Source: Christiangramia flava JLT2011 (GTDB lineage: Bacteria; Bacteroidota; Bacteroidia; Flavobacteriales; Flavobacteriaceae). From it: a DNA stretch of 64,000 nt. How positions within the stretch are numbered: the stretch's first letter is position 1; the number at the start of each line of letters is the position of its first letter. Position numbers and translations under genes: made by a program. A model generated the notes under the pieces. That model saw only the letters and a program-made list of their open reading frames with translations. It was not told the origin of the DNA and made no database searches. The stretch covers positions 3,062,001-3,126,000 of the forward strand of contig NZ_CP016359.1 in the NCBI RefSeq assembly GCF_001951155.1. The letters are read 5' to 3'. Positions 12,032 through 29,540 of the stretch are shown here, piece by piece.

Positions 12032-12625
12032 TTAGTGGTTAATGTCGGAGAGCAGCTTCTCGGTGGCTTCCAAAGATTTTTTGTAAGACCGGAAGACCCA
12101 AAATGCAAATCCTAAAAAAGCAATGATGGAAATTGGAAAAGTCAGGGTCCAGAAATGCTCGGTTTCACTGAGGTCTACACCTTTAATAGCTGAAAGTACA
12201 GGAATGGCTACGATCAGTAAAAACAGTCCTAATGACACGTTCAATTTTTGAAATTTTTGAAACCTCATCTTCCGTTTTCCGAAATCATTTAAAGTGTCTA
12301 AATAAGTTTTCGAGGAGATGGGTAAATTTTGCATAAGATTCAGACTGCGTAAGGAAATTACCGGCAGTGTAAGGAGCAAACCAATCGCAATGATCGCGAA
12401 GATCTTTTCAGCCAAAGGATCTATTTTTACAAAATTCATGATTAAATAAACGGCTCCAAGGTAACAGATGATCGTGCCTATCATTTCAGGATACCTGATT
12501 TTATTCAATTTTGAATGATACTTCTGTTCGGTTACCTTTTCAAGAAGGTTCTTAGTGAGCAACTCCTGTTTTTCTACTTTTTTGCTCATTCCTTCCCATA
12601 AATTTTTCATCTCTTCTAATTCCAT
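12032..12625 (-). CDS. membrane protein paired with ECF sigma factor, candidate anti-sigma factor
   Basis: 197 residues. A charged cytoplasmic N-terminus (~1-45, EEMKNLWEGMSKKVEKQELL) precedes four hydrophobic helices in two pairs (~47-65, 72-90, 128-146, 157-175). It starts 5 bp after the stop of the sigma-factor gene, the usual place for an anti-sigma factor. There is no recognisable zinc anti-sigma motif (HxxxCxxC), so the role is inferred from context only. Confidence 0.7.
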   Translation of the reverse strand: MELEEMKNLWEGMSKKVEKQELLTKNLLEKVTEQKYHSKLNKIRYPEMIGTIICYLGAVYLIMNFVKIDPLAEKIFAIIAIGLLLTLPVISLRSLNLMQNLPISSKTYLDTLNDFGKRKMRFQKFQKLNVSLGLFLLIVAIPVLSAIKGVDLSETEHFWTLTFPISIIAFLGFAFWVFRSYKKSLEATEKLLSDINH

Positions 12626-12630
12626 GATAG

Positions 12631-13119
12631 TTAGTTTTTAGTTAGTCGGGATTTCAATTTTTTCTTGATCCTTGAAATTTTGGTTCCAACGTTCGTTTTT
12701 GTGATTCCTATGATTTCTGCAATTTCATCATGACTCTTTCCTTCGAGGAACAACAGGATAATACCTTTTTCCAGGAGGTTTAATTGTTGAATTTGATCGT
12801 GGAGCAACTGTAGTTTTTCTTCTTCTGAATGATCCTGCTGCTCCGTAATTCTTTCTGCCATAGGATCAATACTGGTAGTTCCTATGTTTCTCTGACTCTT
12901 TTTCAAATGATAGATCGCGGTATTCATGGCCACCCGGTACATCCAGGTGCTTAATTTGGAAAATTCCTTGAAGCTGTCGTAAGATTTCCAAAGTTGAAAA
13001 ACAATTTCCTGATAAAGATCTTCCCGGTCCTGCAGACTATCGGTATACAGAAAAGTCACTTTATAAATCAGGCCTTCATGTTCTTTAATCGCTTTGGTAA
13101 AATGTTCTTTTTTATTCAT
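12631..13119 (-). CDS. ECF-type RNA polymerase sigma factor
   Basis: 162 residues, typical ECF length. Region 2 is visible as GLIYKVTFLYTDSLQDREDLYQ.., with FSKLSTWMYRVAMNTAIYHLKK (2.3/2.4), and region 4 as LLEKGIILLFLEGKSHDEIAEI.. with TKTNVGTKISRIKKKL forming the helix-turn-helix. It directs RNA polymerase to a small regulon, presumably under control of the membrane protein encoded just downstream. The 5' flank is AT-rich and may hold an autoregulated promoter. Confidence 0.9.
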   Translation of the reverse strand: MNKKEHFTKAIKEHEGLIYKVTFLYTDSLQDREDLYQEIVFQLWKSYDSFKEFSKLSTWMYRVAMNTAIYHLKKSQRNIGTTSIDPMAERITEQQDHSEEEKLQLLHDQIQQLNLLEKGIILLFLEGKSHDEIAEIIGITKTNVGTKISRIKKKLKSRLTKN

Positions 13120-13331
13120 CTGAAATTGAAACTGCTCCTTATTAGTGTATCAAATTTTGAAAAAATCACACATCAGAAGATTTTTTTTTAAAAACATTTT
13201 GAGACCATCGGTAATTCGCTTTATCACAACAAAATTACCATTTATCCACAGGAAACTTACCGGTTAACGAATTATAGCCCTTTTTGGTGCTTTCCTGGAA
13301 TAAATTGCGGGTATAAACAAAACTTGAAGCT

Positions 13332-16481: not shown

Positions 16482-17060
16482 TTATAACAAACTGCCCACC
16501 ACCGTGTATACGATATTGAAATTGCCTGTTCCGCCGGCAAATTTGCTGCTGGCCTTGATCCGGAATTGCACCGGGATATCGGTTCTACAGCCCACAAATT
16601 CAAAGATCTTGATCGCCTGGGAGCCATCGTTGGGAACAGGGATATAATCACCGCCGTTGGAGGGCGTAAGGTCACGCGGTCCCAGGGGTTGAATGATCAA
16701 AAGGTCATAAATGCTTACCTCCGGGAACCTGGAGCCGCTATTCATATAAGTACGGGCTTCAATTTGCAGATTGGCGGGAAGGTTTTGCGTATGCACATAC
16801 ACGCTGTACCTGAAAACATTTTCATTGCACATGACTTCGGAATTCAGCAATAATAGAGGATCCAGCGTAAAACTGATCAGGTTGGCATCGATCGCGCTTT
16901 CAAATCCTGTGACTGTGTCATCAAGGCCTGCTTCGCGAACCACATCGTCAATATTCTGAATAAAAGCCGGCATCCCCGAAACATTCATCGTACCCGGCAA
17001 CAGCTGCGCATGAATCCAACTCGAAGTAATGATGGACAGGAAAAGTAGTATTTTTTTCAT
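16482..17060 (-). CDS. secreted beta-rich protein, putative minor fibre subunit
   Basis: 192 residues with a clear signal peptide (ending IHAQ). The mature part is beta-rich and ends FNIVYTVVGSLL, an alternating hydrophobic strand like the C-terminus of the major-subunit candidate at 21622 (TLVYTLTDL). Cys78-like and Cys157-like residues may form a disulfide. Last gene of the chaperone-usher-like operon, 11 bp after the previous stop. No named family recognised; the subunit role is inferred from size, composition and position. Confidence 0.7.
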   Translation of the reverse strand: MKKILLFLSIITSSWIHAQLLPGTMNVSGMPAFIQNIDDVVREAGLDDTVTGFESAIDANLISFTLDPLLLLNSEVMCNENVFRYSVYVHTQNLPANLQIEARTYMNSGSRFPEVSIYDLLIIQPLGPRDLTPSNGGDYIPVPNDGSQAIKIFEFVGCRTDIPVQFRIKASSKFAGGTGNFNIVYTVVGSLL

Positions 17061-17071
17061 GGTTCAGGTTG

Positions 17072-17647
17072 TTAGCGTATTTCAAAAAGTATTTCAAAAC
17101 CAGGCGGAAGAGAAAGAGCTTCCGGGTTCTGGATCATGTATTGCACCTGGTAGCCGGTACCTTCGCCATCCCCGGAATAACCGTTGGCAAAATCGTAGAC
17201 AATGACCTGCTCGCTGGTACTGAGATTCACAGGATTATAATTGGGATTTGGATTATAATCTCCGCCAATATTGGCGGTATTGATGATCTGTAGCTGGATG
17301 CTCATACCCGCCGGAATGGGCTGGCTGGCTCTAACAAAGATCCTGGCATTCTGGTAATTAAGTGACCGCCAGGTGAAATTCACCCAAAAATCACCGCTGG
17401 AGGCACCCGGGCCACCACCGGTAAAAGGATTTCCGGCTTCTAAAGTTTCACCGCCACCTGCAGCAGCACTGAAGGGATCTGGCTCCAGGTCAATCAGTGA
17501 AATTGGCTGCACCTGGACCGTAGCTCCTACACTTTGCTGGTCGCCGCCCAGGATAAAACTATTGGGATCAAACGCATTGATGGTCTCCTGCGCTGTAAAT
17601 TTCTGCAGGGAAGCGATCAGTATCAATAAATAACAGGCTTTTCTCAT
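17072..17647 (-). CDS. secreted beta-rich protein, putative minor fibre subunit
   Basis: 191 residues with a signal peptide. Gly/Pro-rich near 65-90 (AAAGGGETLEAGNPFTGGG), then beta-strands (FWVNFTWRSLNYQNARIFVR, MSIQLQIINTANIGG), ending in a hydrophobic strand GFEILFEIR. Its start overlaps the stop of the usher-like gene (ATGA), indicating translational coupling. It could be a tip or anchor component of the assembled fibre. Family not recognised. Confidence 0.7.
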   Translation of the reverse strand: MRKACYLLILIASLQKFTAQETINAFDPNSFILGGDQQSVGATVQVQPISLIDLEPDPFSAAAGGGETLEAGNPFTGGGPGASSGDFWVNFTWRSLNYQNARIFVRASQPIPAGMSIQLQIINTANIGGDYNPNPNYNPVNLSTSEQVIVYDFANGYSGDGEGTGYQVQYMIQNPEALSLPPGFEILFEIR

Positions 17648-20628
17648 GGCTTTTTTCCAAGGTTATAGGTCTTTTTACTGAATTTGATTTTCCGTGGGCG
17701 TGCAACAATGGGCATTTCAATTGCCACAAGTTCTCCAGGTTGCACGCTCACTGCAAGCTCTTTCTCAAAATCATAATCTTCTTCGTTTCTGAAATGCAGC
17801 AATTTCAGGCTGTAATTTCCGGGGACGATGCGATCAAAATGGAAGATTCCCTGTTCGTTCGATTCGGTCATATAGCTGAATTGTTCATTGCTGATCTTCA
17901 CATAACCGCGATAAGCGCTTTCACCGTTCTGATTTTTCATGCTGATGTAGCCTTTGATCCCGCCCGCCTGGCTGATCTCAAAATAACTATGGTGTTTGGC
18001 GTTTGGCTGAATGTTGATTTCAATCGGGGATTGGGTGGTCACCACGCTCGATGCCTGAAGGCTCGACTCGTCAATGAAAAGGTAATGTTGCCCTACCGGA
18101 AGATTGTTAAGCTCAAAATGGCCATTTTTATTGGTCACCACCTCTTTTCCGGCAGCCAGAATCCGAATCCCGGAAACGTCCAAATCTTCGGTTGACGTAC
18201 CAATCGTTCCACTGAGGCTGCCCTGATCAAGGACACGTTTTAACGGTACTCCCAGAAAATAAGTGTATTTCCCCAGGGCCAGCAACTCTTTTCGGTTCAT
18301 GGCGCCTGCATTTTCGTAATAGGTAATACGGGTTTCAAATTGGTGATGACGAGCTAGCCTGAAAAGGAAGTTCGATGTCACAAAATCTCTTCGGAGGTAG
18401 TTTTCATCCGGACTAAAACCGCTGTTGTAGGTCGCATTCCATCTGAAGTTTCTTCCGGCGCTCAGGTTAAAACCCACATGATAACGCGTATAGGCCATTT
18501 TTGCATCGCTATAACCATAACGGTTACTGTAATTATGGTTCATCCCGCCGCGTAAACTCAACGCATCTGTCAGGCGATAGGCAGAATTGAAATTGATGGA
18601 GTAGGTGTTTTTAAAATCGTCGCTTCCAACCAGTAAATTCTGCGTTTTGGCCAGCCTTCCATTGAAATTGAAAGAAAGTTTCTCTCCGGAATACAAATAG
18701 CGATACAAGAGGCTTCGTTCCTTATAAAAATAAGATTTGGGCTCAAGCTGGTCTTCACGTTGACGGGTTTCCGCACGAAGACTGAAGCTATGCTTGCGAT
18801 TCACGCGATACCCGGCCAGGGCATAAGTGTTTTCAAAATAAGGTTCAGCAGCATAGAATAAGGGATTTAATCGTTGATTGACACGGGAAACGGTGTGTCC
18901 AACCGCGAAATTCCATTTGCCGGGGTTGTAAAATAGACTGTTCGAAAATTGCCGACTATTCCGCAGGCTTCCGAAATAATATTCGCCACTTAAGGTATAC
19001 GAACCATTGAACGAAAATTTACCAAATCCCTGCAAAACGTTTAGAAATGCGGCAGATGACTGGTGCTGATTGGTAAAACTTGCTGAAGCTTCAGCCTCCA
19101 CCTGCGTACGGCGGCGCTTAAAATTTACACTGGCGGTCAGGATTTGTCCTTTTTCATCGGGATTTGCTTCGATATTGGGATTGGCGCCCTGGATACTTCC
19201 GGAAGAATGTGCCAGGTTCAGGGCAACCTGAAGCGAATCGGTAAAACGATAGGTCGCCTTGGCTCCAAAAAGTGGGGAACTATTGAATTCATATAGCCTG
19301 GGCTTGGAATAATAGGTCGAAAATTCCCATTTTTGAAGCTTTTGATCGATTCGAAAACCCATTCCGTAGCGATTATCAAACCCCAGCCTATTCATGAAAT
19401 ACGCATGGTCTCCAAGGAAAACCCGGGTACGGTCCTTATAGCTGTAGATCAGGCTGTACTGGTCGGTTACCCCAAATCGTTTCAGGTATTGCTGCTTCGG
19501 AAGTCGGAACACGAAATTTAGATGATGGTCCTTTTTCAGGTCGAGGTACCCATCGCCAAATACTTCCGCCGAAATGGTGGAAAAATGCTCGTCTTTATAA
19601 GTATAGCTGTTATAATTCAGTGAGGCACGAACAGGAAACCGGAAATAAGCATCTTTTTTCTGGATCTTGCTCGGGAATATACGGGTAGAGGAGTAGGCGC
19701 GTAAAGGCTCTTTCAGTTCCTTGCTGCTTACCTCAAGATAGGTCGTAATGGTTTGAAGCTGCTGGATCTTCTGGCTGGCTTTAGCCTGTACCTTCACGAC
19801 CTTTAAAGAATCTGGTGCAATTGTTCCTTTTTCGGCGTCCAGAAGTTCTACATTCGACTTCAGGCTGATTTCCTGCCTTACGTTCCCATTATTCCGGATA
19901 CCGTAAACCACTTCGACAGGAGCCCCTGCCTGAAGCGTCTTCGGATAGGAAATGGCGAAAATTTCCAGGCTCGGATTTTTGGCAATGCTTACCTGGATTT
20001 CGTCCTGCAGTACAATTTCTCCATTTTCCTGAAGGATTTCCAGTGATACAGGTCGCGATCCCGGTTTTGCTGATGAAGGTATAAAAAAGCTTAGGAGCGC
20101 GACCTTTTTATCACTGTTTTGAAGTTCGTCAATGCTGCTTACCGATACCAGTTTCCAGTCTTCCGGAAGCGTAGCCTGTAATTGCAGTTTTTGATCATGA
20201 GCGTTTTCGCTGGCGATCTCTATGGGAAGTGTGTGCCGGCTTCCGGGTTCCAGGGATGTGTTTTCGGGTTTGGAAATGATCGAAATATTCGGTTTTTCAA
20301 AGACTTTTTCTGAAAAATCAGCGGTAGGGGAATTGATTTTTTTGGTATTTGATTCAGAAATATGGATCGCTTTTTCCGAAGCATTTTGCAGAAAGGATCT
20401 GGTTTTTTCTGAAGTGGATTTCGATTTTTCCGAAATAACTTCAGCAATCGTATCTCGGGAACCAGTTTTGGTCATATTAGCCGGTAACTCAGATTCCTCT
20501 TCCAGGTTTTCCAATTCCTCACGGCTAAAAGGCTCCTCAGAAGCAGGAAGCTGAGGAGTGGATGGTTCTCTCTGGCAGGCACTTAGTGCAAGCCACATCC
20601 AGGCCACGTATAGTAATCGCAGTTTCAT
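17644..20628 (-). CDS. large outer-membrane beta-barrel resembling a fimbrial usher
   Basis: 994 residues. The N-terminus resembles a lipoprotein signal (WLALSAC), followed by a Glu/Ser/Lys-rich low-complexity stretch (~25-120). Residues ~130-330 look like NEW3/Ig-type beta-sandwiches (RHTLPIEIASENAHDQKL, VEVVYGIRNNGNVRQEI). Residues ~335-815 have the alternating pattern of a large barrel, beginning with RVFLGDHAYFMNRLGF..RYGMGF, reminiscent of the RLGD...R.G.Q segment at the start of usher barrels. Two carboxypeptidase-regulatory-like domains (~825-980; TNKNGHFELNNLPVGQHYLF, NEQGIFHFDRIVPGNYSLKL) close it. Order and size parallel FimD-type ushers; homology is inferred, not shown. Confidence 0.6.
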   Translation of the reverse strand: MKLRLLYVAWMWLALSACQREPSTPQLPASEEPFSREELENLEEESELPANMTKTGSRDTIAEVISEKSKSTSEKTRSFLQNASEKAIHISESNTKKINSPTADFSEKVFEKPNISIISKPENTSLEPGSRHTLPIEIASENAHDQKLQLQATLPEDWKLVSVSSIDELQNSDKKVALLSFFIPSSAKPGSRPVSLEILQENGEIVLQDEIQVSIAKNPSLEIFAISYPKTLQAGAPVEVVYGIRNNGNVRQEISLKSNVELLDAEKGTIAPDSLKVVKVQAKASQKIQQLQTITTYLEVSSKELKEPLRAYSSTRIFPSKIQKKDAYFRFPVRASLNYNSYTYKDEHFSTISAEVFGDGYLDLKKDHHLNFVFRLPKQQYLKRFGVTDQYSLIYSYKDRTRVFLGDHAYFMNRLGFDNRYGMGFRIDQKLQKWEFSTYYSKPRLYEFNSSPLFGAKATYRFTDSLQVALNLAHSSGSIQGANPNIEANPDEKGQILTASVNFKRRRTQVEAEASASFTNQHQSSAAFLNVLQGFGKFSFNGSYTLSGEYYFGSLRNSRQFSNSLFYNPGKWNFAVGHTVSRVNQRLNPLFYAAEPYFENTYALAGYRVNRKHSFSLRAETRQREDQLEPKSYFYKERSLLYRYLYSGEKLSFNFNGRLAKTQNLLVGSDDFKNTYSINFNSAYRLTDALSLRGGMNHNYSNRYGYSDAKMAYTRYHVGFNLSAGRNFRWNATYNSGFSPDENYLRRDFVTSNFLFRLARHHQFETRITYYENAGAMNRKELLALGKYTYFLGVPLKRVLDQGSLSGTIGTSTEDLDVSGIRILAAGKEVVTNKNGHFELNNLPVGQHYLFIDESSLQASSVVTTQSPIEINIQPNAKHHSYFEISQAGGIKGYISMKNQNGESAYRGYVKISNEQFSYMTESNEQGIFHFDRIVPGNYSLKLLHFRNEEDYDFEKELAVSVQPGELVAIEMPIVARPRKIKFSKKTYNLGKKP

Positions 20629-20668: not shown

Positions 20669-21457
20669 TTATTGCACGCTCAGGTTGATGTTGGTCCCGA
20701 TAAATTCCTTTCGGGAATCGGCTGTTAGGATACATTCATATTCTCCTTTTTCGAGATCGGAAATATCTAGTTCATATTGCTGGCAGGCGCCGGGGAAAAC
20801 CATTTCCCGTTTCGATTTTCGTTCGCCAACCTTGAAGCCTTTGGAGTCGTAAATCTCCAGGGAGAGTTGTACTCCTTCCATAAAAAGGGAAGTATTGGAA
20901 ATACCAATTTTCAGGGATTTGACGGTATCGATATCTTCGTTCAGGCTGATCGCTTCAAAATCGATATTCACATTTTCCTTCTGATTTACATTAGTGATCA
21001 AACCAATCGCGTAGCGTATTTTGGTATCCAGCTGGATATTGGTTGTTAGTTGTTCCTCTTTTACCGGTTTGGTTGCTTCGATCATTAATGCTGACCAGTA
21101 AGTGCCTTTCAGACTTTGATCTTTTGGAATCTGGATGGAATACTTATAGACGAACTGCTCCTTGGGAAGTAGCACCTTATCCATCAGGCTTCCCTGGAAC
21201 CAGGGAAGAGAAGATTGTTTGTGAGAGACCGTATCGGTAAAAAAGCGGTTGGTCTCACAAGAGAAGATAACATCATTTAATTTGAAAGTGATCTGCTGCG
21301 GAAGATCGGTGGTGTTCATCAGGATCAGCTCTCCTTCAATTCGGTCACCGGCGTTACCGGAATATACATGTGTAAGACCATTAAGAACAACGATGCTCGC
21401 GTAGGAGTGGCTACTAAGAAGTACGTAAAGTGCTGTGGTTACCATAAGATTCTTCAT
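20669..21457 (-). CDS. periplasmic Ig-fold protein, putative fibre-subunit chaperone
   Basis: 262 residues with a signal peptide. Two Ig-like domains: residues ~22-135 (HVYSGNAGDRIEGELILMNT.., FVYKYSIQIPKDQSLKGTYW) and ~140-262 (TKIRYAIGLITNVNQ, LKIGISNTSLFMEGVQLSLE). The order resembles both the two-domain pilus chaperones (PapD type) and the DUF916-DUF3324 pair of WxL-interacting proteins. It lies 40 bp upstream of the usher-like gene and has its own conserved promoter (21477-21546). The chaperone role is inference from fold pattern and position. Confidence 0.6.
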   Translation of the reverse strand: MKNLMVTTALYVLLSSHSYASIVVLNGLTHVYSGNAGDRIEGELILMNTTDLPQQITFKLNDVIFSCETNRFFTDTVSHKQSSLPWFQGSLMDKVLLPKEQFVYKYSIQIPKDQSLKGTYWSALMIEATKPVKEEQLTTNIQLDTKIRYAIGLITNVNQKENVNIDFEAISLNEDIDTVKSLKIGISNTSLFMEGVQLSLEIYDSKGFKVGERKSKREMVFPGACQQYELDISDLEKGEYECILTADSRKEFIGTNINLSVQ

Positions 21458-21476: not shown

Positions 21477-21546
21477 TAAAATTACTGACAGATTGCACGA
21501 AAACTCGGTGAAATTCGATGGTTCGTAAGGAAGTGTAGACGAATGG
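21477..21546 (-). promoter_or_regulatory. conserved bipartite promoter of the chaperone-usher-like operon
   Basis: In the gene sense: CCATTCG (21546-21540), 18 bp, CCATCG (21521-21516), exactly 31 bp, then TAATTTTA (21484-21477), a near match to the Bacteroidota -7 element. The same half-sites and spacings occur at 22296, 22809 and 29471. The second half-site ends 59 bp upstream of the chaperone ATG. Candidate target of the LytTR regulator encoded at 22901. Confidence 0.7.
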
Positions 21547-21573
21547 TCGTTAAACTGCTTTAAGTAAAAAACA

Positions 21574-21598
21574 TAAAAAAAGGCCCGAAATGGGCCTT
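21574..21598 (-). terminator. terminator of the major-subunit gene
   Basis: In the minus sense AAGGCCC / GGGCCTT with a short loop, followed by TTTTTTTATGTTTTTT. It separates the major-subunit gene from the promoter of the chaperone-usher-like operon, allowing different expression levels. Confidence 0.88.
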
Positions 21599-21621
21599 GA
21601 GGTTTTGGGCAAAAAAAGGTC

Positions 21622-22266
21622 TTATAAATCAGTCAAGGTATATACAAGGGTAGATTGGTAGGAACCGGCATTGTAACTGGCAAAATTCCCATTTTGCTCC
21701 AGCGTGTAGGTTAATTTTACGCCGTATTCCTGGTCACCGGTATACACACTTTCAATACTGTCTACGAGTAGGGCATCGGTACCAATTGGGACAGACACAC
21801 CGAGTGCCACACCACCTGGCATGATCGTGCCGGCAGAGTCGGCCGTACCACCGTCTGAAATGATCACGGGCGCTTCCGGTGAAATACGAAGGTCCAGATT
21901 GCCTGGGAACGTACTTCCGGCTTCCATTTTCACATTGATCTTTCTTGTAAGATCATATCCTTCTGTATTAGCAGCACTGGCAACCACACTGGTATAATTC
22001 AGGAACAGGTTGGAATAGCTTATATCCTGGAAGGCGTAGAGACCCGCTTCAGCATTAGTACCAGATAAGGTTACATTGGTCATGTCGAACATGATCGCGC
22101 TGGCTTCGGTTCCCGTATTGGCATCAAAGATATCGAGCAGGGCCACTTCCGGAACATTTACATCCAGAATGTGTGAAGCGATGTTCGTGTCGTTGTTGTC
22201 CTGGGCCAGCAGGCTTTGAGCTCCAGAAAGGACAAGGGCGGCGACTAATAGTTTCATTTTTTTCAT
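21622..22266 (-). CDS. secreted protein, putative major fibre subunit
   Basis: 214 residues. Signal peptide (ending SLLAQ), then a mature Ala/Thr/Ser-rich, acidic beta protein with few charged clusters and no Cys, typical of abundant surface subunits. It contains HILDVNVPEVALLDI near the start, RKINVKMEAGSTFPGNLDLRI in the middle, and ends YNAGSYQSTLVYTLTDL, reminiscent of the closing strands of DUF4402 or spore-coat-U pilins. It is monocistronic: its own conserved promoter (22296) and a strong terminator (21574), as expected for a major subunit. The role is inferred. Confidence 0.65.
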   Translation of the reverse strand: MKKMKLLVAALVLSGAQSLLAQDNNDTNIASHILDVNVPEVALLDIFDANTGTEASAIMFDMTNVTLSGTNAEAGLYAFQDISYSNLFLNYTSVVASAANTEGYDLTRKINVKMEAGSTFPGNLDLRISPEAPVIISDGGTADSAGTIMPGGVALGVSVPIGTDALLVDSIESVYTGDQEYGVKLTYTLEQNGNFASYNAGSYQSTLVYTLTDL

Positions 22267-22295
22267 GTTGAAGAGTTTTAGGATTAATTCTGAGG

Positions 22296-22365
22296 TAAAA
22301 CTACTGAGGATGGTCTTTTGAATTAGTCATTTTTCGTTGATTAAACCTTAACTATAGACGAGCGG
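22296..22365 (-). promoter_or_regulatory. conserved bipartite promoter of the major-subunit gene
   Basis: In the gene sense: CCGCTCG (22365-22359), 18 bp, TCAACG (22340-22335), 31 bp, TAGTTTTA (22303-22296). The half-sites are more diverged than in the other three copies, but both spacings are identical. It lies 69 bp upstream of the ATG. Confidence 0.6.
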
Positions 22366-22424
22366 AAGTTTTCAATACTTGAAGTGTTTTAGGGCAAAAT
22401 TCTTCTCACGGTTATCCTTAAAAT

Positions 22425-22453
22425 GAAGAAAGCCCCTGATTGTTTCAGAGGCT
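22425..22453 (-). terminator. terminator of the STAS gene
   Basis: In the minus sense AGCCTCTGA / TCAGGGGCT (one G-U pair) with a 5-nt loop, followed by TTTCTTCATTTT. Confidence 0.75.
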
Positions 22454-22478
22454 CATGGCTAATTTCAAATACTGCGTA

Positions 22479-22778
22479 TCAGGCAGCCGCGGCGGGGTGG
22501 AACGCGTTGTGAAGTCCCGCAATGTATAGGGCGTTGTGAAGTATTGGGTTGTCTAATCCTGTAAAAACAATTTTCTTGTTCTTTTCCTTGGCTTTGCATA
22601 ACATCAGGTACAGCATGAACACTCCTGCAATATCAACCACCTCGATCTCGCGAAGATTGATCTCAATGGTGTTGAACACTTCCAGAGCGTATTCTAATTC
22701 TTCCTGGGTTTCGCTAACATTTCCGCTGTACAGTCTTCCTTTTATTTGAAGATTCCGTGTGTTGTTTAAAAAAGCCAT
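22479..22778 (-). CDS. STAS-domain protein, orphan anti-anti-sigma-like
   Basis: 99 residues. Strand pattern RNLQIKGRLYSGNV, TIEINLREIEVVDIAGVFML, KKIVFTGLD is that of STAS domains. At the SpoIIAA phosphorylation site (D-S-S-G) it has D-I-A-G, so the acceptor Ser is Ala. It lies 122 bp after the LytTR regulator gene with its own copy of the conserved promoter (22809), and upstream of the fibre subunit. It could bind a kinase or regulator of the same network; partner unknown. Confidence 0.78.
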   Translation of the reverse strand: MAFLNNTRNLQIKGRLYSGNVSETQEELEYALEVFNTIEINLREIEVVDIAGVFMLYLMLCKAKEKNKKIVFTGLDNPILHNALYIAGLHNAFHPAAAA

Positions 22779-22808
22779 AATCGTTAGTTTTTGTTTTCTT
22801 TCCTACTT

Positions 22809-22878
22809 CAAAGATGCAAGCATTTAAAAGAAAACTGGCTCGTTTTTCGATGGCTACGAACTTACTGTAGACGAATGG
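22809..22878 (-). promoter_or_regulatory. conserved bipartite promoter of the STAS gene
   Basis: In the gene sense: CCATTCG (22878-22872), 18 bp, CCATCG (22853-22848), 31 bp, CATCTTTG (22816-22809). Half-sites are identical to those at 21477-21546, with the same spacing to a -7-like octamer. 70 bp upstream of the ATG. Confidence 0.7.
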
Positions 22879-22900
22879 CAAAAAAACGCAAGTAAATGGT

Positions 22901-23620
22901 TTAGAGGAGATTCAAACGGCGAATGAGCTCTGATCTGTTCGAGCGGCTCACCGGGATCACATCTTTGTCTATGAGTACGCTATTGTCTTCAATATCAATG
23001 ATCTTATTCAGGTTGATAATGAAGGAACGGTGCACTTTGAGAAACAGTTCGCCCGGTAATTTGTTCTCGATTTTTTTTAGAGTAGAATGAACGGTGTAGT
23101 TTTTACCGGTGGTTTTGATGAGGATATAATCGCCTTTTGCCTCGATGAGTTTGATGGAAGGAACATCGATCTTGATCAGGCGGCGGTCTATATTGACGTA
23201 TAACACGTTTACAGAATCTTCGGCCTGGTTCATTTCAGTGGTTCCCGCTGTTTCAACATTTCCGCTGTTAACCGCTTTGGCTTTCTCAACAGCTTTATTA
23301 AAACGTTCCGGCGCGACCGGTTTTACAAGGTAATCTACGATGCAGCTGTATTCAAAGGCGGTAATGGCAAAATTCATATCAGAAGTCGTCAAAATCACTT
23401 TTGGCGGGTTCTTCAGCGTTTGTATAAAATCAAAACCTGTAAAATCTGGCATATGAATATCGAGAAAGATCAGGTCTACATCATTGTTCTGGTTGAGGTA
23501 TTTCAGGGCTTCCATAGCATGTGGAAAGCTACCTGCCAGTTCCAGGTCCGGGTGATTGCTAACTATCTCTTCCAGAATGGCTCTGGCCATTTCTTCATCG
23601 TCTACGATAATGCAGTTCAT
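22901..23620 (-). CDS. LytTR-family response regulator
   Basis: 239 residues. Receiver domain 1-120 with acidic pocket, phospho-acceptor Asp in DLIFLDIHMPDFTGFDF, and Lys in YLVKPV. LytTR DNA-binding domain ~140-239 (IKLIEAKGDYILIKTTGKNY, STLKKIENKLPGELFLKVHR, SFIINLNKI). Last gene of the phosphorelay operon, 9 bp after the Hpt gene. LytTR proteins bind direct repeats upstream of promoters; the repeated elements at 21516, 22335, 22848 and 29510 are its likely targets, including its own operon. Confidence 0.93.
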   Translation of the reverse strand: MNCIIVDDEEMARAILEEIVSNHPDLELAGSFPHAMEALKYLNQNNDVDLIFLDIHMPDFTGFDFIQTLKNPPKVILTTSDMNFAITAFEYSCIVDYLVKPVAPERFNKAVEKAKAVNSGNVETAGTTEMNQAEDSVNVLYVNIDRRLIKIDVPSIKLIEAKGDYILIKTTGKNYTVHSTLKKIENKLPGELFLKVHRSFIINLNKIIDIEDNSVLIDKDVIPVSRSNRSELIRRLNLL

Positions 23621-23629
23621 AAGTGTTTT

Positions 23630-23947
23630 TTAAAGGGTCTTGATAAATTGCCTGATGCTGTCAAGAATTAGATCGAATTTAGCCTTTTTTTCGGTAATGC
23701 CTTCTAAAAGTTCGTCTTCGTAGGAAACAGCAAGTTGGTAGGCATCTTCCAGGCCTAAAATACTAATTTTATGCTTCAGTTTATGAACGTTTTCGGCACA
23801 ATTTTCCAAATAGCCCTTTTCCAGGTTCTGCTGGTAGGTGGCAGCTTCTATTGGAAATTCTTTTTTCAGGATCGCGATAATTCGCGACTTGCAGCTTTCA
23901 CTGCCCTGGCAGATTTGCTCAATTTGCGCAAGACTGGGTTTTTTCAT
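23630..23947 (-). CDS. Hpt (histidine phosphotransfer) domain protein
   Basis: 105 residues, all-helical, with the Hpt signature around VHKLKHKISILGLEDAYQLA; the His of HKLKH is the likely phosphate carrier (usual HxLKG with Gly replaced by His). It overlaps the upstream kinase gene by 29 bp and sits 9 bp ahead of the LytTR regulator, so it likely relays phosphate from a kinase/receiver pair to that regulator. Confidence 0.82.
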   Translation of the reverse strand: MKKPSLAQIEQICQGSESCKSRIIAILKKEFPIEAATYQQNLEKGYLENCAENVHKLKHKISILGLEDAYQLAVSYEDELLEGITEKKAKFDLILDSIRQFIKTL

Positions 23948-24998
23948 GGGAGGTCTGGTTTATTTTGGGGAGCTGAAAAAAGAAGGTACTTCCTAAACCG
24001 GGAGTGCTTTCCAGCCAGATTCTTCCTTTATAGAAATCGATGATTTTCTTCACGATAGACAGTCCAATTCCAGTAGAAGTCTGGTTATTCTCCAGCTTTT
24101 CAAAGATCTTAAAGATCTTTTCGTGCTGATTTTTTGGGATGCCTTTGCCATTATCACGCACGAAAAACGTAAAATTTTCTTTGTCTTCGGAATGGCCGAT
24201 CTCCACTTTGCCGACTTTTCCATCTTCCATACTGTTCACGGCATTGTGTATCAAATTCTGAAACAATTGCTGCAACCGGAAACGGTCACCTTGTATCACG
24301 GGAAGATCGGTGATCACTTCCACTTTCGTGGATTCCGGGATATACAGTATTTGTAGGGTTTCTTCCAGGAGATTTCCTAAATCTACTTTATAGGTTTCCA
24401 GCTGCGCCTGGTCTATGGTAGAATAGTTCAGCACGCCTTCAATAAGCGCGTCCATTCGTTCCACATTCTGAAGCAATAACCTAAATTTATCCTGGCCTTC
24501 GGGAGTGATTTCTTTTAAATGATCGCTCAGGATCCAGTTTGCCAGTGCGTCGATACTGCGCAGTGGCGACTTCAGGTCATGAGAGACCATATGCGCATAA
24601 TCTGATAGCACTTCGTTCTTCTGTTCCAGCGTATGAAGAAGCTCTTCCCGTTGGGACTGGATCTGGTGGATCTGCGTAGCCTGCGTTTCTATGAAATCGG
24701 CCAGTTCTTCAACTTCCATTTCCTTATGCCCGTATTTCGCCGCCTTCACATTCATCATATTCAGGCAATTATTAAAGGTGTCAATGATTTTTTCCTTTTT
24801 CTCCGCATCGTTCCGAAGTTTGGAATTGGCATCAAAAAGTTCATCTGAACTGATGCGCATCGCTCGCTGGGACATGGCGATCTGTTCCTCGTAATTATTA
24901 TAGGAATGGCTGATGGAATCCAGCAGCGGCATCAATTCTTCTTCCGAAATATGAGCAGGAAGGTATTTTTTCAGTTGTCTTTTCAAAAGTGAATTCAT
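23919..24998 (-). CDS. sensor histidine kinase (HisKA/HATPase), cytoplasmic
   Basis: 359 residues with no transmembrane helix. An N-terminal helical region (~1-120, coiled coil) precedes the H-box (DYAHMVSHDLKSPLRSIDAL, phospho-His ~141) and a HATPase domain with the N, G1 and G2 boxes (FQNLIHNAVNSM, VRDNGKGIPKN, STGIGLSIVKKI). The lack of a sensory domain suggests that it takes input from the FIST or H-NOX proteins of the same operon. Its start overlaps the FIST stop by 4 bp. Confidence 0.92.
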   Translation of the reverse strand: MNSLLKRQLKKYLPAHISEEELMPLLDSISHSYNNYEEQIAMSQRAMRISSDELFDANSKLRNDAEKKEKIIDTFNNCLNMMNVKAAKYGHKEMEVEELADFIETQATQIHQIQSQREELLHTLEQKNEVLSDYAHMVSHDLKSPLRSIDALANWILSDHLKEITPEGQDKFRLLLQNVERMDALIEGVLNYSTIDQAQLETYKVDLGNLLEETLQILYIPESTKVEVITDLPVIQGDRFRLQQLFQNLIHNAVNSMEDGKVGKVEIGHSEDKENFTFFVRDNGKGIPKNQHEKIFKIFEKLENNQTSTGIGLSIVKKIIDFYKGRIWLESTPGLGSTFFFQLPKINQTSHEKTQSCAN

Positions 24999-26131
24999 GA
25001 CTCGCTGATTAAAGTTAAGGTCATCGTTTGATTGTGCAATTCACAAAACCGGTTCGTTTCAAAAGGCGCCATTTCTCCGTAAGAGTAGAACCCAAAAAGG
25101 AAACTGTCCTGGCCAATGATCTCGGCCACTTCTTCCAGCTCTTCCTCGGCGCGCTGATCCATCACCAGTTTCCTGCCAATGCAACTCACCACCAGGGCAA
25201 GGCTCGGTTTGTTTTTCCGGTTTTTCATGGCCTTTTTTGCGGCTTTGGAAGCACCTTCCACCAAACTGTCTACGGATGCCATCATTAACTGTACCTTGGA
25301 ATTGACCGGGGCATTTCCCGCCAGGATCATCGAGTTATTCTCTTTATCGATATTCAGTACGGTACGGGTCACCGGTTCGGTTTGGTCGTTAACCCGAATA
25401 TTAAGCGGGTAGAAGAGGGAGGCACCCGGCAATTCTTTAGATTTTTCACCCAGATACTTGGAGTACAGGTCAAGGGCCGGCATTCCGTCAATTTCATATA
25501 AAATATTTCCTTCGGCTTTGGTGATCACACGTTCGGGCCCGAATGGGATCCATCCTCCCGAACTCGCGTAACTAATGTCCAGTGATTCGCCATAAAAACC
25601 AATTGCGATCACTTCACCTTCCTTCGGTTTTTCATTATAGGAAACCAGGGTCTTTTCAAAACGGTCATTATCGCCGCACATACCGCCGGTGACAGATAAT
25701 TCCTGGTCGAGATTCGATTCCATACCCTTAACCAGTTTGCTGCCGTTCACAAAACTTCCTTCGGAAATCACGAAAATATGCCGAAGATTTTCCTGCGGAA
25801 GGTTCGCCACCAGCGCTTTTCCCAATTCGTCGGAATCCTGCTGAAATTCGCAGCAATTGGCTTTACGTACTTCAAAAGAGCTGGTTTCAAAATCGATGGC
25901 GGTCATCACGGCCGAATTATCCAGAATGTCCTGATGGTAAATTTCACCTGCTGAAGAACCGAAAACGATATGCCTTGTAGGGAAGGCAGCTATCGTCTCC
26001 TGGTAAAAATCGTCACTTTCAAGCAGTTTACGATCTCCAAAAACAAATACCAGCGGATTTTGTAGGGACTCAAACTCCCGGTTTTTGATCCAGTTTTCAC
26101 CTGCCGGTCTTTTTGCCTGAACTATTTTCAT
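24995..26131 (-). CDS. FIST-domain sensory protein (FIST N and FIST C)
   Basis: 378 residues, cytoplasmic. FIST N (~25-215): LVFVFGDRKLL, HIVFGSSAGEIYHQ, GGMCGDNDRFEKTLV. FIST C (~225-360): EIDGMPALDLYSKYLGE and a closing FLFGFYSYGEMAPF. FIST domains are predicted small-ligand (amino-acid-like) sensors and are often next to kinases. It overlaps both neighbouring kinase genes by 4 bp, so it is a dedicated part of this phosphorelay. Confidence 0.92.
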   Translation of the reverse strand: MKIVQAKRPAGENWIKNREFESLQNPLVFVFGDRKLLESDDFYQETIAAFPTRHIVFGSSAGEIYHQDILDNSAVMTAIDFETSSFEVRKANCCEFQQDSDELGKALVANLPQENLRHIFVISEGSFVNGSKLVKGMESNLDQELSVTGGMCGDNDRFEKTLVSYNEKPKEGEVIAIGFYGESLDISYASSGGWIPFGPERVITKAEGNILYEIDGMPALDLYSKYLGEKSKELPGASLFYPLNIRVNDQTEPVTRTVLNIDKENNSMILAGNAPVNSKVQLMMASVDSLVEGASKAAKKAMKNRKNKPSLALVVSCIGRKLVMDQRAEEELEEVAEIIGQDSFLFGFYSYGEMAPFETNRFCELHNQTMTLTLISES

Positions 26132-28500
26132 GATTCTTTTTTTAAGGTAAAGAAAAAAGTAGTGCCTTCGCCCGGAGTACTTTCCAGCCAGATGCGACCA
26201 CCGTGCAGATCCAGGATCTTTTTCACGATGCTCAGGCCAATTCCTGTAGAGCGCTTGTTATTGCCAAGAGACTTGAAAATGGTAAAAATCTTGTCATGAT
26301 TCTCTGGCGCAATACCCACACCGTTATCTTTGATCGAGAAAACATACTCATTTTCAGATTTTTGGCAGTCAATTTCAATAAGTCCTTCAGGCTTGTCGAT
26401 ATATTCTATCGCGTTGCTGATGATGTTCTGGAAAAGCTGCTGAATCCGGGTGGGGTTCTCCTTGATTCGCGGCAGCTTACTAAGGAATTTGATCTTTATG
26501 TGTTTGGGGATATAGATCATTTCCAGCATTTCTCCAACCACCTCGTTGAGGTCTATACTTTTCTGGTTAACGTCTGATTTGTCCAGGCTGGAATATTTCA
26601 GGATATTTTCGATGAGATAATCCATTTTTTCCACCTGTTCTTCCATCAGCCTCAAATTCGTTAGTTCAGCCTCTTCCAGTTTCTGGCGGAAGTCTTCAAT
26701 GGTCCAGCTCAGCAATGCGGAAATATTCCGAAGTGGAGATTTGAGATCATGCGACACGATGTGCGCATATTCGTTGAGGCGCTCGTTCTGCTCGGCCAGG
26801 TTCTCCAGAAGCAGTTCCTTCTGCATTTCCAGGTGCTTTTGCTCGGTAATGTCCAGGTGAATGCCAATGGAACCAATATTTCTTCCCTGGGCATCGAAAT
26901 TGGGCGCTCCACTGAGTAACCAGTAGCGGGTTTCACCTTCCTTATTCTTGATCTGGATCTCGTAGGAATCTGAAATTCCCTTCTGGCGGCGAGATAACAG
27001 TTTCTGTCCTTCTTGCTGATCTTTGCCAAAAAGCAACACTTCCTGGGCTACCTGATCGTGTAGTTCTTCTTTGGAATAACCGCTGATCTCACAGAAATTC
27101 TGGTTCACGAACTGGATGCGGCCCTCGGTGTCTACTTCCATAAAGCCCAGTTTCATATTATTGATGATATTGCTGTATTTTTCCTTTTGTCTGCGTAAAT
27201 TCTCCTTGTAGCGGCTGCGCAGTGTAATATCCTGGTAATTCCAGAGGTGACCGCGGTATTCCTCGTTATTGTAGACCGGGATGTAGTCCCTTAGGAAAAC
27301 ACGGCCGTCCACCAGGCGCAATTCATCGGCATAGACCGGTTTTTTATCTTTTAGGATCTTATCGATATCTGCTACGAATTTATCGGGATCTTCAAACATC
27401 ATTTTAGACTGTTCTGCGGCATTTTCACAATTCGCACCAGTGAGAGCATCGGCAGGAGCTTCAATACCAAACATTTTGCAGAATTCCTGGTTGGTAATTA
27501 CAATCTCGCGATGTTGATTTTCCAGCAGGATCCCGGTATGAAGATTTTTCAGAAGAGTGGACAGCCTGTTCTCAGACTCTCTCAGCTGGTCCCGGGCGAT
27601 CTTTTCCTTATTGATGTTTTCTACCGTCGCCACCATTTGTAAGGGCAGGCCTACTTCATTCTTTACAGAATTGACCGAAGTCTTTCCCCAGAAGGCCTCC
27701 CCATCTTTGGTAATATATTTGGTTTCCAGCGAAAAGTGATCGATCTCATTATTGTAAAGTTTCTGCAGCTGTGTTTTGAAGTTCTTTTTTTCATTTTTTT
27801 CCAAAAGCTCTTCGAGTTTAACATTTTCAAACTCGGTTTTAGAATAGCCAAGCATATCTACCAGCGCTTTGTTGGTATGAATGAGTTTATCGTCTTCGCT
27901 ACTGAATAAAATGATGCCCAGCGGCGAGTTTTCCAGGATAAGGTCCAGTTGTTTCTGCTGAAGATTGGCAATTTCTCTAAGCCGTGTTTCTTCGGTAATA
28001 TCCCTTGCAATACCCTGTGCAGCGACCGCTTTTCCAACTTCGTTATAGATGATGCTGGCATTTACCTGAAGCAGTTTCCTTTCCCCGTTTTTTGTCACAA
28101 CAGGGATTCGGGAGTTGATATAGGAGCCGGTGCTAAGCAATTCACTGAAATTGCGTTTGACCTGGTTCACCGCCTTATGGCTCACCGTATTCATCAAATT
28201 GAAAGGTTCTACTGCGATATCGTACCCCAATAGTTCCGTAGCTGCGCTGTTCATATTGAGCACTTCACCGTTAAGGTCGATCACAACATAGGGATCATTG
28301 ATATTCATAAAAACGCCTTCGAGTTCCGAAGTCTTTTCACTTAACAACTGCTTTAACCGGGAATTTGATTGCCGAAGCGCCTGCGAAACGCTGTACAACT
28401 CAGCCGACTTACTTTCCAGTATGTTTTCGGCTGCCTTGCGTGCCTGGCGTTCCCGTTTCAGGGCTCTTTCTAGAACTTCTATTTTGGTGGTTACACTCAT
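26128..28500 (-). CDS. PAS-domain sensor histidine kinase, cytoplasmic
   Basis: 790 residues. A coiled coil (~1-70) followed by about four PAS modules (~70-190, 195-315, 320-430, 440-560; e.g. VFMNINDPYVVIDLNGEVLN, ENSPLGIILFSSEDD, NNMKLGFMEVDTEGRIQFVN), then the H-box EYAHIVSHDLKSPLRNISAL (~579) and HATPase (FQNIISNAIEYI, IKDNGVGIAPEN, STGIGLSIVKKIL). No membrane segment. Encoded directly after the H-NOX gene (4-bp overlap), and H-NOX proteins commonly control a neighbouring kinase. Confidence 0.93.
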   Translation of the reverse strand: MSVTTKIEVLERALKRERQARKAAENILESKSAELYSVSQALRQSNSRLKQLLSEKTSELEGVFMNINDPYVVIDLNGEVLNMNSAATELLGYDIAVEPFNLMNTVSHKAVNQVKRNFSELLSTGSYINSRIPVVTKNGERKLLQVNASIIYNEVGKAVAAQGIARDITEETRLREIANLQQKQLDLILENSPLGIILFSSEDDKLIHTNKALVDMLGYSKTEFENVKLEELLEKNEKKNFKTQLQKLYNNEIDHFSLETKYITKDGEAFWGKTSVNSVKNEVGLPLQMVATVENINKEKIARDQLRESENRLSTLLKNLHTGILLENQHREIVITNQEFCKMFGIEAPADALTGANCENAAEQSKMMFEDPDKFVADIDKILKDKKPVYADELRLVDGRVFLRDYIPVYNNEEYRGHLWNYQDITLRSRYKENLRRQKEKYSNIINNMKLGFMEVDTEGRIQFVNQNFCEISGYSKEELHDQVAQEVLLFGKDQQEGQKLLSRRQKGISDSYEIQIKNKEGETRYWLLSGAPNFDAQGRNIGSIGIHLDITEQKHLEMQKELLLENLAEQNERLNEYAHIVSHDLKSPLRNISALLSWTIEDFRQKLEEAELTNLRLMEEQVEKMDYLIENILKYSSLDKSDVNQKSIDLNEVVGEMLEMIYIPKHIKIKFLSKLPRIKENPTRIQQLFQNIISNAIEYIDKPEGLIEIDCQKSENEYVFSIKDNGVGIAPENHDKIFTIFKSLGNNKRSTGIGLSIVKKILDLHGGRIWLESTPGEGTTFFFTLKKES

Positions 28501-29036
28501 TGTTCAGAAATGACAAATTTCACCTGGCTGCCATCGGCTTCGACCAGGTTGTAATCTATAACGGGTGTCTTTTTAAAGAATTCAAAGGTCTTTTCCATGA
28601 GCGCCATCGCGAACATATAAAGGGAGTTCTTGGAATAGTAGGTCATTTCCAGAAGCTTTTCGTCTTTCTTAGAAATTTCGAAAGTAGGCAGTTCTGCTCC
28701 CGGATATAGTTTTTGTACTTCCACATGAATATGGTCCTGCACGGAAGCCAGAAGTTCTATGGGCGATGCGTAGCGGGCAAAAATATTAGCGTGGCCCTGG
28801 GCAAGTACGTCAAAGAAATACCGGCCATATTCGTAAATAAGCTTTTGCACGGGAATACCGGTTTCCTCGCTCAGGTGTACAATGAGTTGCTGCATTTCCA
28901 GGAAATCATAAACGCCCACGGCGGTATAGCTTCCTTCCGAAGCAAGGTCAGATTTTTCAATGATATCATCTACCATCTCCAGGCCGAATTTTTCTTCCAC
29001 CATTTCTAAAAACTCTGTAAATACGATTCCTTTCAT
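28497..29036 (-). CDS. H-NOX (heme NO-binding, HNOB) domain protein
   Basis: 179 residues, the single-domain bacterial H-NOX length. MKGIVFTEFLEMVEEKFGLEMVD is the family N-terminus. His104 in DHIHVEVQKLYPGAELPTF aligns with the proximal heme ligand (7 residues before Tyr, as in soluble guanylate cyclase His105). The heme-propionate motif YxSxR is present as Y133-x-S135-x-N137: Arg is replaced by Asn. It would sense NO (or other gas/redox state) and signal to the adjacent kinase. The altered motif may change heme affinity. Confidence 0.9.
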   Translation of the reverse strand: MKGIVFTEFLEMVEEKFGLEMVDDIIEKSDLASEGSYTAVGVYDFLEMQQLIVHLSEETGIPVQKLIYEYGRYFFDVLAQGHANIFARYASPIELLASVQDHIHVEVQKLYPGAELPTFEISKKDEKLLEMTYYSKNSLYMFAMALMEKTFEFFKKTPVIDYNLVEADGSQVKFVISEQ

Positions 29037-29037
29037 C

Positions 29038-29451
29038 TTAATTTTGGATTAGTTCATTTACGGTCCAGTACTTCAGTACGGCACCAATTTTTTCAACATA
29101 GTCATCATATTTCAGCGGTTTGATAACATATCCCGCGATACCGGTTCGATAGCATTCCAGTAGATCCTTGCGGTTGCTGGAAGTAGTAAGGATAATGGCC
29201 GGGATCTGCCTCAACTGCTCATCGGCTTTGAGAATTTCCAGGAATTCGATGCCATTCATTTTAGGCATGTGGAGATCCAGTAAAATGATATCGGGAAGAT
29301 TTGCGGTGTTCTGGAGCACTTCCAGCGCTTCTTCACCATTCTTGGCTTCCAGGAGGTTATGGTTTAAAGAAAGGCTGCTAATGGCTCTCTTTAATTTCAT
29401 GACCTCGATGAAATCATCTTCAATTAATAGAATATTCAGTTTAACCTTCAT
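29038..29451 (-). CDS. single-domain response regulator (CheY-like receiver)
   Basis: 137 residues: acidic pair ILLIEDDFIE, phospho-acceptor Asp in DIILLDLHMPKMNGIEFLE, Thr/Ser in AIILTTSSN, Lys in YVIKPLKYDD. No output domain, so it probably serves as phosphate intermediate or sink between the kinases and Hpt. First gene of the seven-gene relay operon, 1 bp ahead of H-NOX, preceded by a conserved promoter at 29471. Confidence 0.93.
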   Translation of the reverse strand: MKVKLNILLIEDDFIEVMKLKRAISSLSLNHNLLEAKNGEEALEVLQNTANLPDIILLDLHMPKMNGIEFLEILKADEQLRQIPAIILTTSSNRKDLLECYRTGIAGYVIKPLKYDDYVEKIGAVLKYWTVNELIQN

Positions 29452-29470
29452 CGTTTTGTTATAAGCAGGA

Positions 29471-29540
29471 TAAATGTCTCAAAAATGCCATTTAACGGCC
29501 GCTGTATTTCGGTGGAAGGAAGAGAAGTGTCGACGAATGG
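29471..29540 (-). promoter_or_regulatory. conserved bipartite promoter of the H-NOX/FIST phosphorelay operon
   Basis: In the gene sense: CCATTCG (29540-29534), 18 bp, CCACCG (29515-29510), 31 bp, GACATTTA (29478-29471). The upstream half-site is identical to two other copies; the -7-like octamer is weak (an alternative CATTTTTG begins 22 bp after CCACCG). 59 bp separate the second half-site from the ATG. It implies that the LytTR regulator controls its own operon. Confidence 0.62.

Follow-up and report, generated by a model that had tools for sequence, protein, structure and literature searches.

Activation by LytTR regulators from direct repeats is a known kind of mechanism, and, as far as we know, the Flavobacteriaceae have few described regulons or transcription factor sites. 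In Pseudomonas aeruginosa the LytTR-family system AlgR/AlgZ governs genes for alginate and for type IV pili, and the core half-site of AlgR is given as CCGTTCGTC (both from an excerpt of PMC4064291). At PyhjX, the LytTR regulator YpdB has a pair of direct repeats whose period is 21 bp, according to an oligonucleotide in PMC4847170, and AgrA at agr P2/P3 has repeats centred near -60, according to part of the text of PMC4227749; both arrangements resemble the one described here. A relay that starts from an H-NOX protein is represented by Vibrio fischeri, where H-NOX and its kinase HahK are believed to pass into an Hpt step and to govern the exopolysaccharide (syp) genes (PMC8738867, in part). 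The flavobacterial primary-sigma promoter is described as bearing a TAnnTTTG -7 box at -12 to -5 (an excerpt of PMC9723704). The locus compared with these systems lies in a 64,000-nucleotide stretch of the Christiangramia flava JLT2011 genome, positions 3062001-3126000 (the window), in which four promoters share a 33-bp site. It is highly likely, judging from sequence and its conservation, that these promoters belong to a conserved regulon of the LytTR regulator encoded at 22901-23620, which would activate them from repeats, its own operon included, and the shared tag is very probably the switch by which an H-NOX relay controls the cell surface.

The initial annotation had proposed that four promoters in the window share one exact bipartite architecture, in which a first element is followed after 18 bp by a second element and after a further 31 bp by an octamer. 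A regular-expression scan of the window (CC[AG][TC]TCG-N18-N6-N31-N8) returned 16 matches, which included all four sites, each on the minus strand and each with gaps of exactly 18 bp and then 31 bp (Table 1). The four second-element sequences were also recovered, although they had been listed in a different order from the octamers, and the distances of 59, 69, 70 and 59 bp to the start codons fit when counting begins where the second element ends. The gene-sense consensus of the four is longer than first described, CCRYTCGTCKAYANT-N10-YCAHCGAA, and this 33-mer has four exact matches in the 4.0-Mb genome (one contig), all within the window, an exact match that holds by construction since the pattern was derived from these sites. 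Two other matches occur at three mismatches, and the reversed 33-mer has one match at three or fewer mismatches in the whole genome; the spaced motif is thus infrequent elsewhere, as the earlier reading needed it to be. Further matches to CCRYTCGTCTA in this genome were discarded as sites, two of them being tRNA-Glu genes and two lying inside genes. None of the four window boxes is a perfect TAnnTTTG.

Table 1. Features of the window (window coordinates) and further R1 hits (genome coordinates, marked g)
Feature	Coordinates	Strand	Remarks
Candidate fifth site	13235..13306	+	Weak; one-base insertion; 14.7 bits in window, E 0.11 genome-wide; 5' of a STAS, TSP3/CHU_C, PorP/SprF gene run
Small fibre-operon protein, probably secreted	16482..17060	-	Signal-like start by eye
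Small fibre-operon protein, probably secreted	17072..17647	-	Signal-like start by eye
Large outer-membrane/usher-like protein	17644..20628	-	
Periplasmic chaperone-like protein	20669..21457	-	Two Ig-like domains
-7 box TAATTTTA	21477..21484	-	29 bp past 33-mer
33-bp LytTR-type site, chaperone/usher-like operon	21514..21546	-	Two half-sites, 21-bp period; start 21546, second element CCATCG; sequence and model
Putative major fibre subunit	21622..22266	-	Putative target
-7 box TAGTTTTA	22296..22303	-	
33-bp site, major subunit-like gene	22333..22365	-	Start 22365, second element TCAACG; sequence and model
Orphan STAS protein	22479..22778	-	Putative target
-7 box CATCTTTG	22809..22816	-	
33-bp site, orphan STAS gene	22846..22878	-	Start 22878, second element CCATCG; top score genome-wide; sequence and model
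LytTR response regulator	22901..23620	-	Proposed site-binding protein; domain and conservation
Hpt phosphotransfer protein	23630..23947	-	Pfam PF01627, 24.2 bits vs cut-off 24.6
Second histidine kinase	23919..24998	-	
FIST protein	24995..26131	-	FIST N and C domains; weak NosP resemblance
PAS-repeat histidine kinase	26128..28500	-	
H-NOX (HNOB) haem sensor	28497..29036	-	HNOB 131.8 bits
Single-domain receiver	29038..29451	-	Pfam PF00072
-7 box GACATTTA	29471..29478	-	Weak, a poor -7 box; better-looking alternative CATTTTTG 9 bp nearer site
33-bp site, receiver/H-NOX/.../LytTR operon	29508..29540	-	Start 29540, second element CCACCG; proposed autoregulation; sequence, model and relatives
R1 hit	771265-771328 g		26.4 bits; no clear gene, nearest downstream ORF ~380 bp off; may serve a small RNA or short ORF
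R1 hit	2586037 g		Before Polysacc_synt_3 flippase and glycosyltransferase
R1 hit	2594563 g		Before receiver-GT2 protein, then Hpt; inside longest ORF, yet 5' of likely ATG of receiver-GT2 gene
R1 hit	2596250 g		Before GMP-type nucleotidyltransferase, then T9SS protein

Conservation of the site was studied in two sets of loci from relatives, both selected by protein and blind to the motif. The first set comprised 76 stretches, each of at most 20 kb, around LytTR relatives, with one (L131) contributed by the genome of the window itself; the second comprised 75 further loci, taken from the best 80 of 561 obtained in named genomes by LytTR homology, from genera that include Winogradskyella, Algibacter, Psychroserpens, Lacinutrix, Zunongwangia, Tenacibaculum, Flavobacterium, Aquimarina and Mesonia. 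The operon layout is REC-HNOX-PAS kinase-(FIST-kinase)-Hpt-LytTR, with some loci lacking one gene or another. Upstream of the receiver gene a site at four or fewer mismatches was found in 47 of 63 relatives' loci in the first set, compared with 72 of 1133 other ORFs (the remaining 16 receiver upstreams had more than four mismatches), and in 65 of 70 loci in the second set, compared with 136 of 1153 other ORFs; the contrast is conservative because the other ORFs include likely targets, and the genomes are related and not independent samples, so that kinship inflates the counts. The reversed pattern at four or fewer mismatches was found neither in the receiver upstreams nor before the other ORFs. 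The motif is therefore kept in relatives, as had been anticipated.

The same loci led to a revision of how the site is read. The exact spacing of the proposed bipartite architecture stands, and its register does not: the elements are direct repeats of a half-site of ~12 bp, 21 bp apart, and the CCATTCG...CCATCG register was dropped in favour of this 21-bp repeat following a test anchored on the first half-site alone. With first half-sites taken at two or fewer mismatches (selecting sites by both halves would be partly circular), the best second half fell at plus or minus 21 in 45 of 57 receiver promoters of the first set (38 at +21, 7 at -21) and in 59 of 66 of the second (51 at +21, 8 at -21). 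As in LytTR-controlled promoters, there are two direct repeats of ~9-12 bp that lie ~21-22 bp apart, and at part of the relay promoters there are three, where the 33-mer matches twice, in overlapping copies offset by 21 bp. The repeats also stand at a fixed distance upstream of the core promoter, the receiver sites being less regular. An octamer nAnnTTT(G/A) starts 28 or 29 nt past the best 33-mer at 62 of 73 non-receiver sites in the first set (L131 included) and at 101 of 136 in the second. Among receiver sites it starts at 28/29 in 11, at 49/50 in 15 and at neither in 21 (first set, n=47), and at 28/29 in 12, at 49/50 in 16 and at neither in 37 (second set, n=65); the second peak at 49/50 corresponds to one repeat further.

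The placement of the site bears on the direction of control. If the -7 box is set at -12 to -5, as in an excerpt of PMC9723704, a site at offset 29 spans ~-74 to -42. In the non-receiver set column conservation peaks at the octamer, the columns between site and octamer reach 0.61 bit at most, and there is no conserved -33 element. A site clear of the -7 box, with a preferred spacing of 28-29 bp and no conserved -33 element, is the layout of an activator, and makes it unlikely that the LytTR regulator is a repressor, or has a dual role, at these promoters, even though LytTR proteins are able to work both ways, AlgR being described as a repressor of rhlA (part of PMC4064291). Activation is hence the reading that is followed below.

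A sequence model (R1) was built from the sites at four or fewer mismatches in the 75 loci from other genomes: 45 of these promoters have the octamer exactly 29 nt downstream, and their ungapped 78-column alignment is the sole input of the model. In the window's genome the four sites rank 1, 3, 4 and 5 among 29 hits at E<=10, with E-values of 7.3e-8 to 8.8e-6 (graded as rough by the tool); R1 holds no sequence from this genome, but its members were collected with a window-derived pattern, so the test is not fully independent and the ranking is weaker support for that reason. Four further hits were found at E<=0.01, and three of them lie before surface-polysaccharide or relay-type genes (Table 1).

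Site presence follows the LytTR gene. Among 295 relatives, 72 were scored as positive for a LytTR relative at E<=1e-70 and 223 as negative; a site at two or fewer mismatches was found in 37 of the 72 (35 had none) and in 8 of the 223, and most of these eight may be chance matches, because the reversed-pattern control has matches in 25 of the 295, 10 of them LytTR-positive. Proximity is also seen: of 77 sites, 53 have the LytTR gene no more than 20 kb away. The genus of the window was compared separately in 23 relatives, of which nine have the LytTR gene, 11 are near-complete genomes without it and three are poorer drafts: R1 gave a hit at E<=0.01 in eight of the nine and in none of the 11, one of the 45 R1 sequences (L065, from genome G004) being itself from this genus. 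The exception among the nine is G020, which is LytTR-positive and has no R1 hit; the poorer drafts G009 and G023 had no R1 hit at E<=0.01. That the sites are bound by some other regulator, such as a second LytTR protein, while the operon's LytTR protein merely lies nearby is improbable, more so than repression. In favour of it, each genome has several LytTR proteins (15-71 candidates in matching genomes at first look), a paralogue in the window's genome (L131) lies ~15 kb from the nearest site, and the draft G018 has two R1 hits with no close LytTR gene, its best LytTR protein having only 36-38% identity. Within the genus, however, site presence tracks this LytTR gene, and G006, which has the paralogue alone and is counted among the 11, gave no R1 hit. 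In the five loci that carry the 52-59% LytTR paralogue, no adjacent site was found at five or fewer mismatches. G018, for its part, is a 170-contig draft in which one hit (C115:314-402) shares its contig with an H-NOX fragment at 1006-1362, so that the relay is probably present there and split in the assembly. The paralogue of the window's genome (2611343-2612059 in genome coordinates) carries an in-frame stop and lies beside a second STAS gene, and intact counterparts occur in other members of the genus.

The genes that follow the sites in relatives are of several kinds. A total of 320 ORFs with a site within 300 bp (both sets, L131 excluded) were clustered by sequence, and the clusters, whose family names rest on one or two members each, comprise 116 receiver genes, 57 large proteins (with a T9SS sorting domain in both homologues scanned, one of them from the window's genome), 42 STAS proteins, 40 glycosyltransferases, 11 short putative ORFs of median 105 aa (L066_14 and ten similar), eight flippase-like proteins, three groups of five, four chaperones, four UDP-glucose dehydrogenase-like proteins, four GT2 proteins, one more group of four, three GMP transferases, one more group of three and two H-NOX proteins, alongside seven singletons. 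Many of the non-receiver genes thus recur (STAS, glycosyltransferase, flippase, T9SS and chaperone/fibre). Fibre genes adjoin the relay in L065 (Gramella sp. AN32), L095, L102, L104 and L107, where a site with 2-5 mismatches stands in front of the chaperone gene or that of the major subunit; in L114, which has a more distant fibre set, neither gene is preceded by a site. The link first drawn from the phosphorelay to a surface-fibre gene set therefore holds in so far as fibre genes are among the targets, but the regulon is not limited to fibres, polysaccharide and T9SS genes being commoner. These data also bear on the notion that the four promoters arose by chance or by recent duplication of one promoter, to which their lying within ~8 kb of one another would lend itself. 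Few columns are invariant among the four outside the half-sites and the -7 box, and relatives have the same layout before several unrelated gene families, leaving that notion a negligible probability; chance was ruled out by the receiver-upstream tests in two locus sets together with the within-genus contrast. The regulatory code is real, specific and widely conserved.

The chaperone-like protein of the window has the two-domain periplasmic fold of PapD-like chaperones. Its closest solved fold is that of a Gram-positive WxL-interacting protein, which scored above the classical pilus chaperones. The large protein of the same operon had no match to an usher Pfam family at E<=0.1. When the PDB was searched by sequence, the chaperone alignment found a single weak match, titin, and the usher alignment likewise one, NOMO2. 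For the putative major subunit no Pfam or NCBIfam family was found, and its predicted fold has a pLDDT of 34. Elsewhere in the window a sigma-factor-like gene pair (12032-13119) has what by eye is a close second copy ~0.68 Mb away (L008:149-1237). Within the relay operon, the H-NOX protein keeps H104, Y133 and S135 and has N at position 137, which is R in 106 of 114 homologues. We take the H-NOX motif to be a proximal His plus YxSxR, with position 137 as the R of this haem motif; the N137 protein may differ in haem binding or chemistry.

Taken together, a multistep relay would read as follows. The H-NOX and FIST sensors, with two kinases, would take in the signal, which we infer to be NO, and phosphate would pass from the receiver to Hpt and on to the LytTR regulator. 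The latter is predicted to bind direct repeats of the ~12-bp half-site, with core CCATTCGTC, spaced by 21 bp or two helical turns; the two repeats (or three, at some promoters of the relay itself) would end ~42 bp before the start site, placing LytTR just upstream of RNA polymerase, where it would activate a primary-sigma promoter bearing the Bacteroidota -7 box. The putative output is the relay operon itself and a set of surface genes, namely a polysaccharide flippase, glycosyltransferases, T9SS surface proteins and the orphan STAS protein, to which the chaperone/usher-like fibre would be added in some species, C. flava included. A broader proposal is plausible and somewhat favoured: a family-wide surface-matrix regulon of the Flavobacteriaceae, in which a gas-sensing (H-NOX and FIST) multistep phosphorelay has a LytTR output that reads 21-bp repeat arrays, the repeat number (two or three) tunes autoregulation against targets, and polysaccharide export and chaperone/usher-like fibre are swapped between species.

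No published description of this regulon was found in the literature searched. Judged by that literature, the regulon appears to be new, and so do the relay, the half-site and the layout with two or three repeats. The promoter code is legible from sequence alone, its targets are defined, and with a plausible signal and a named candidate for the regulator it makes a link from H-NOX to surface or biofilm-type genes in marine Bacteroidota directly testable. The core half-site matches that of AlgR, given in the excerpt introduced above, at all but one of nine bases; AlgR sites need not form regular direct repeats, and the phylum and promoter type are different. As far as we know, H-NOX, FIST and Hpt are not among the parts of the AlgR/AlgZ system. 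The half-sites of YpdB and AgrA differ in sequence from the half-site here, and both regulators belong, to our knowledge, to simple two-component systems without receiver/Hpt steps. NosP NO sensors have FIST N and C domains and stand beside histidine kinases, as the FIST protein does here; the latter scores 57.5 bits with the NCBIfam NosP equivalog, below its cut-off of 450, and so falls outside NosP proper. In V. fischeri the Hpt is a domain of SypF, whereas here receiver and Hpt are separate proteins and the C. flava relay is proposed to end in a LytTR regulator whose own operon carries a site.
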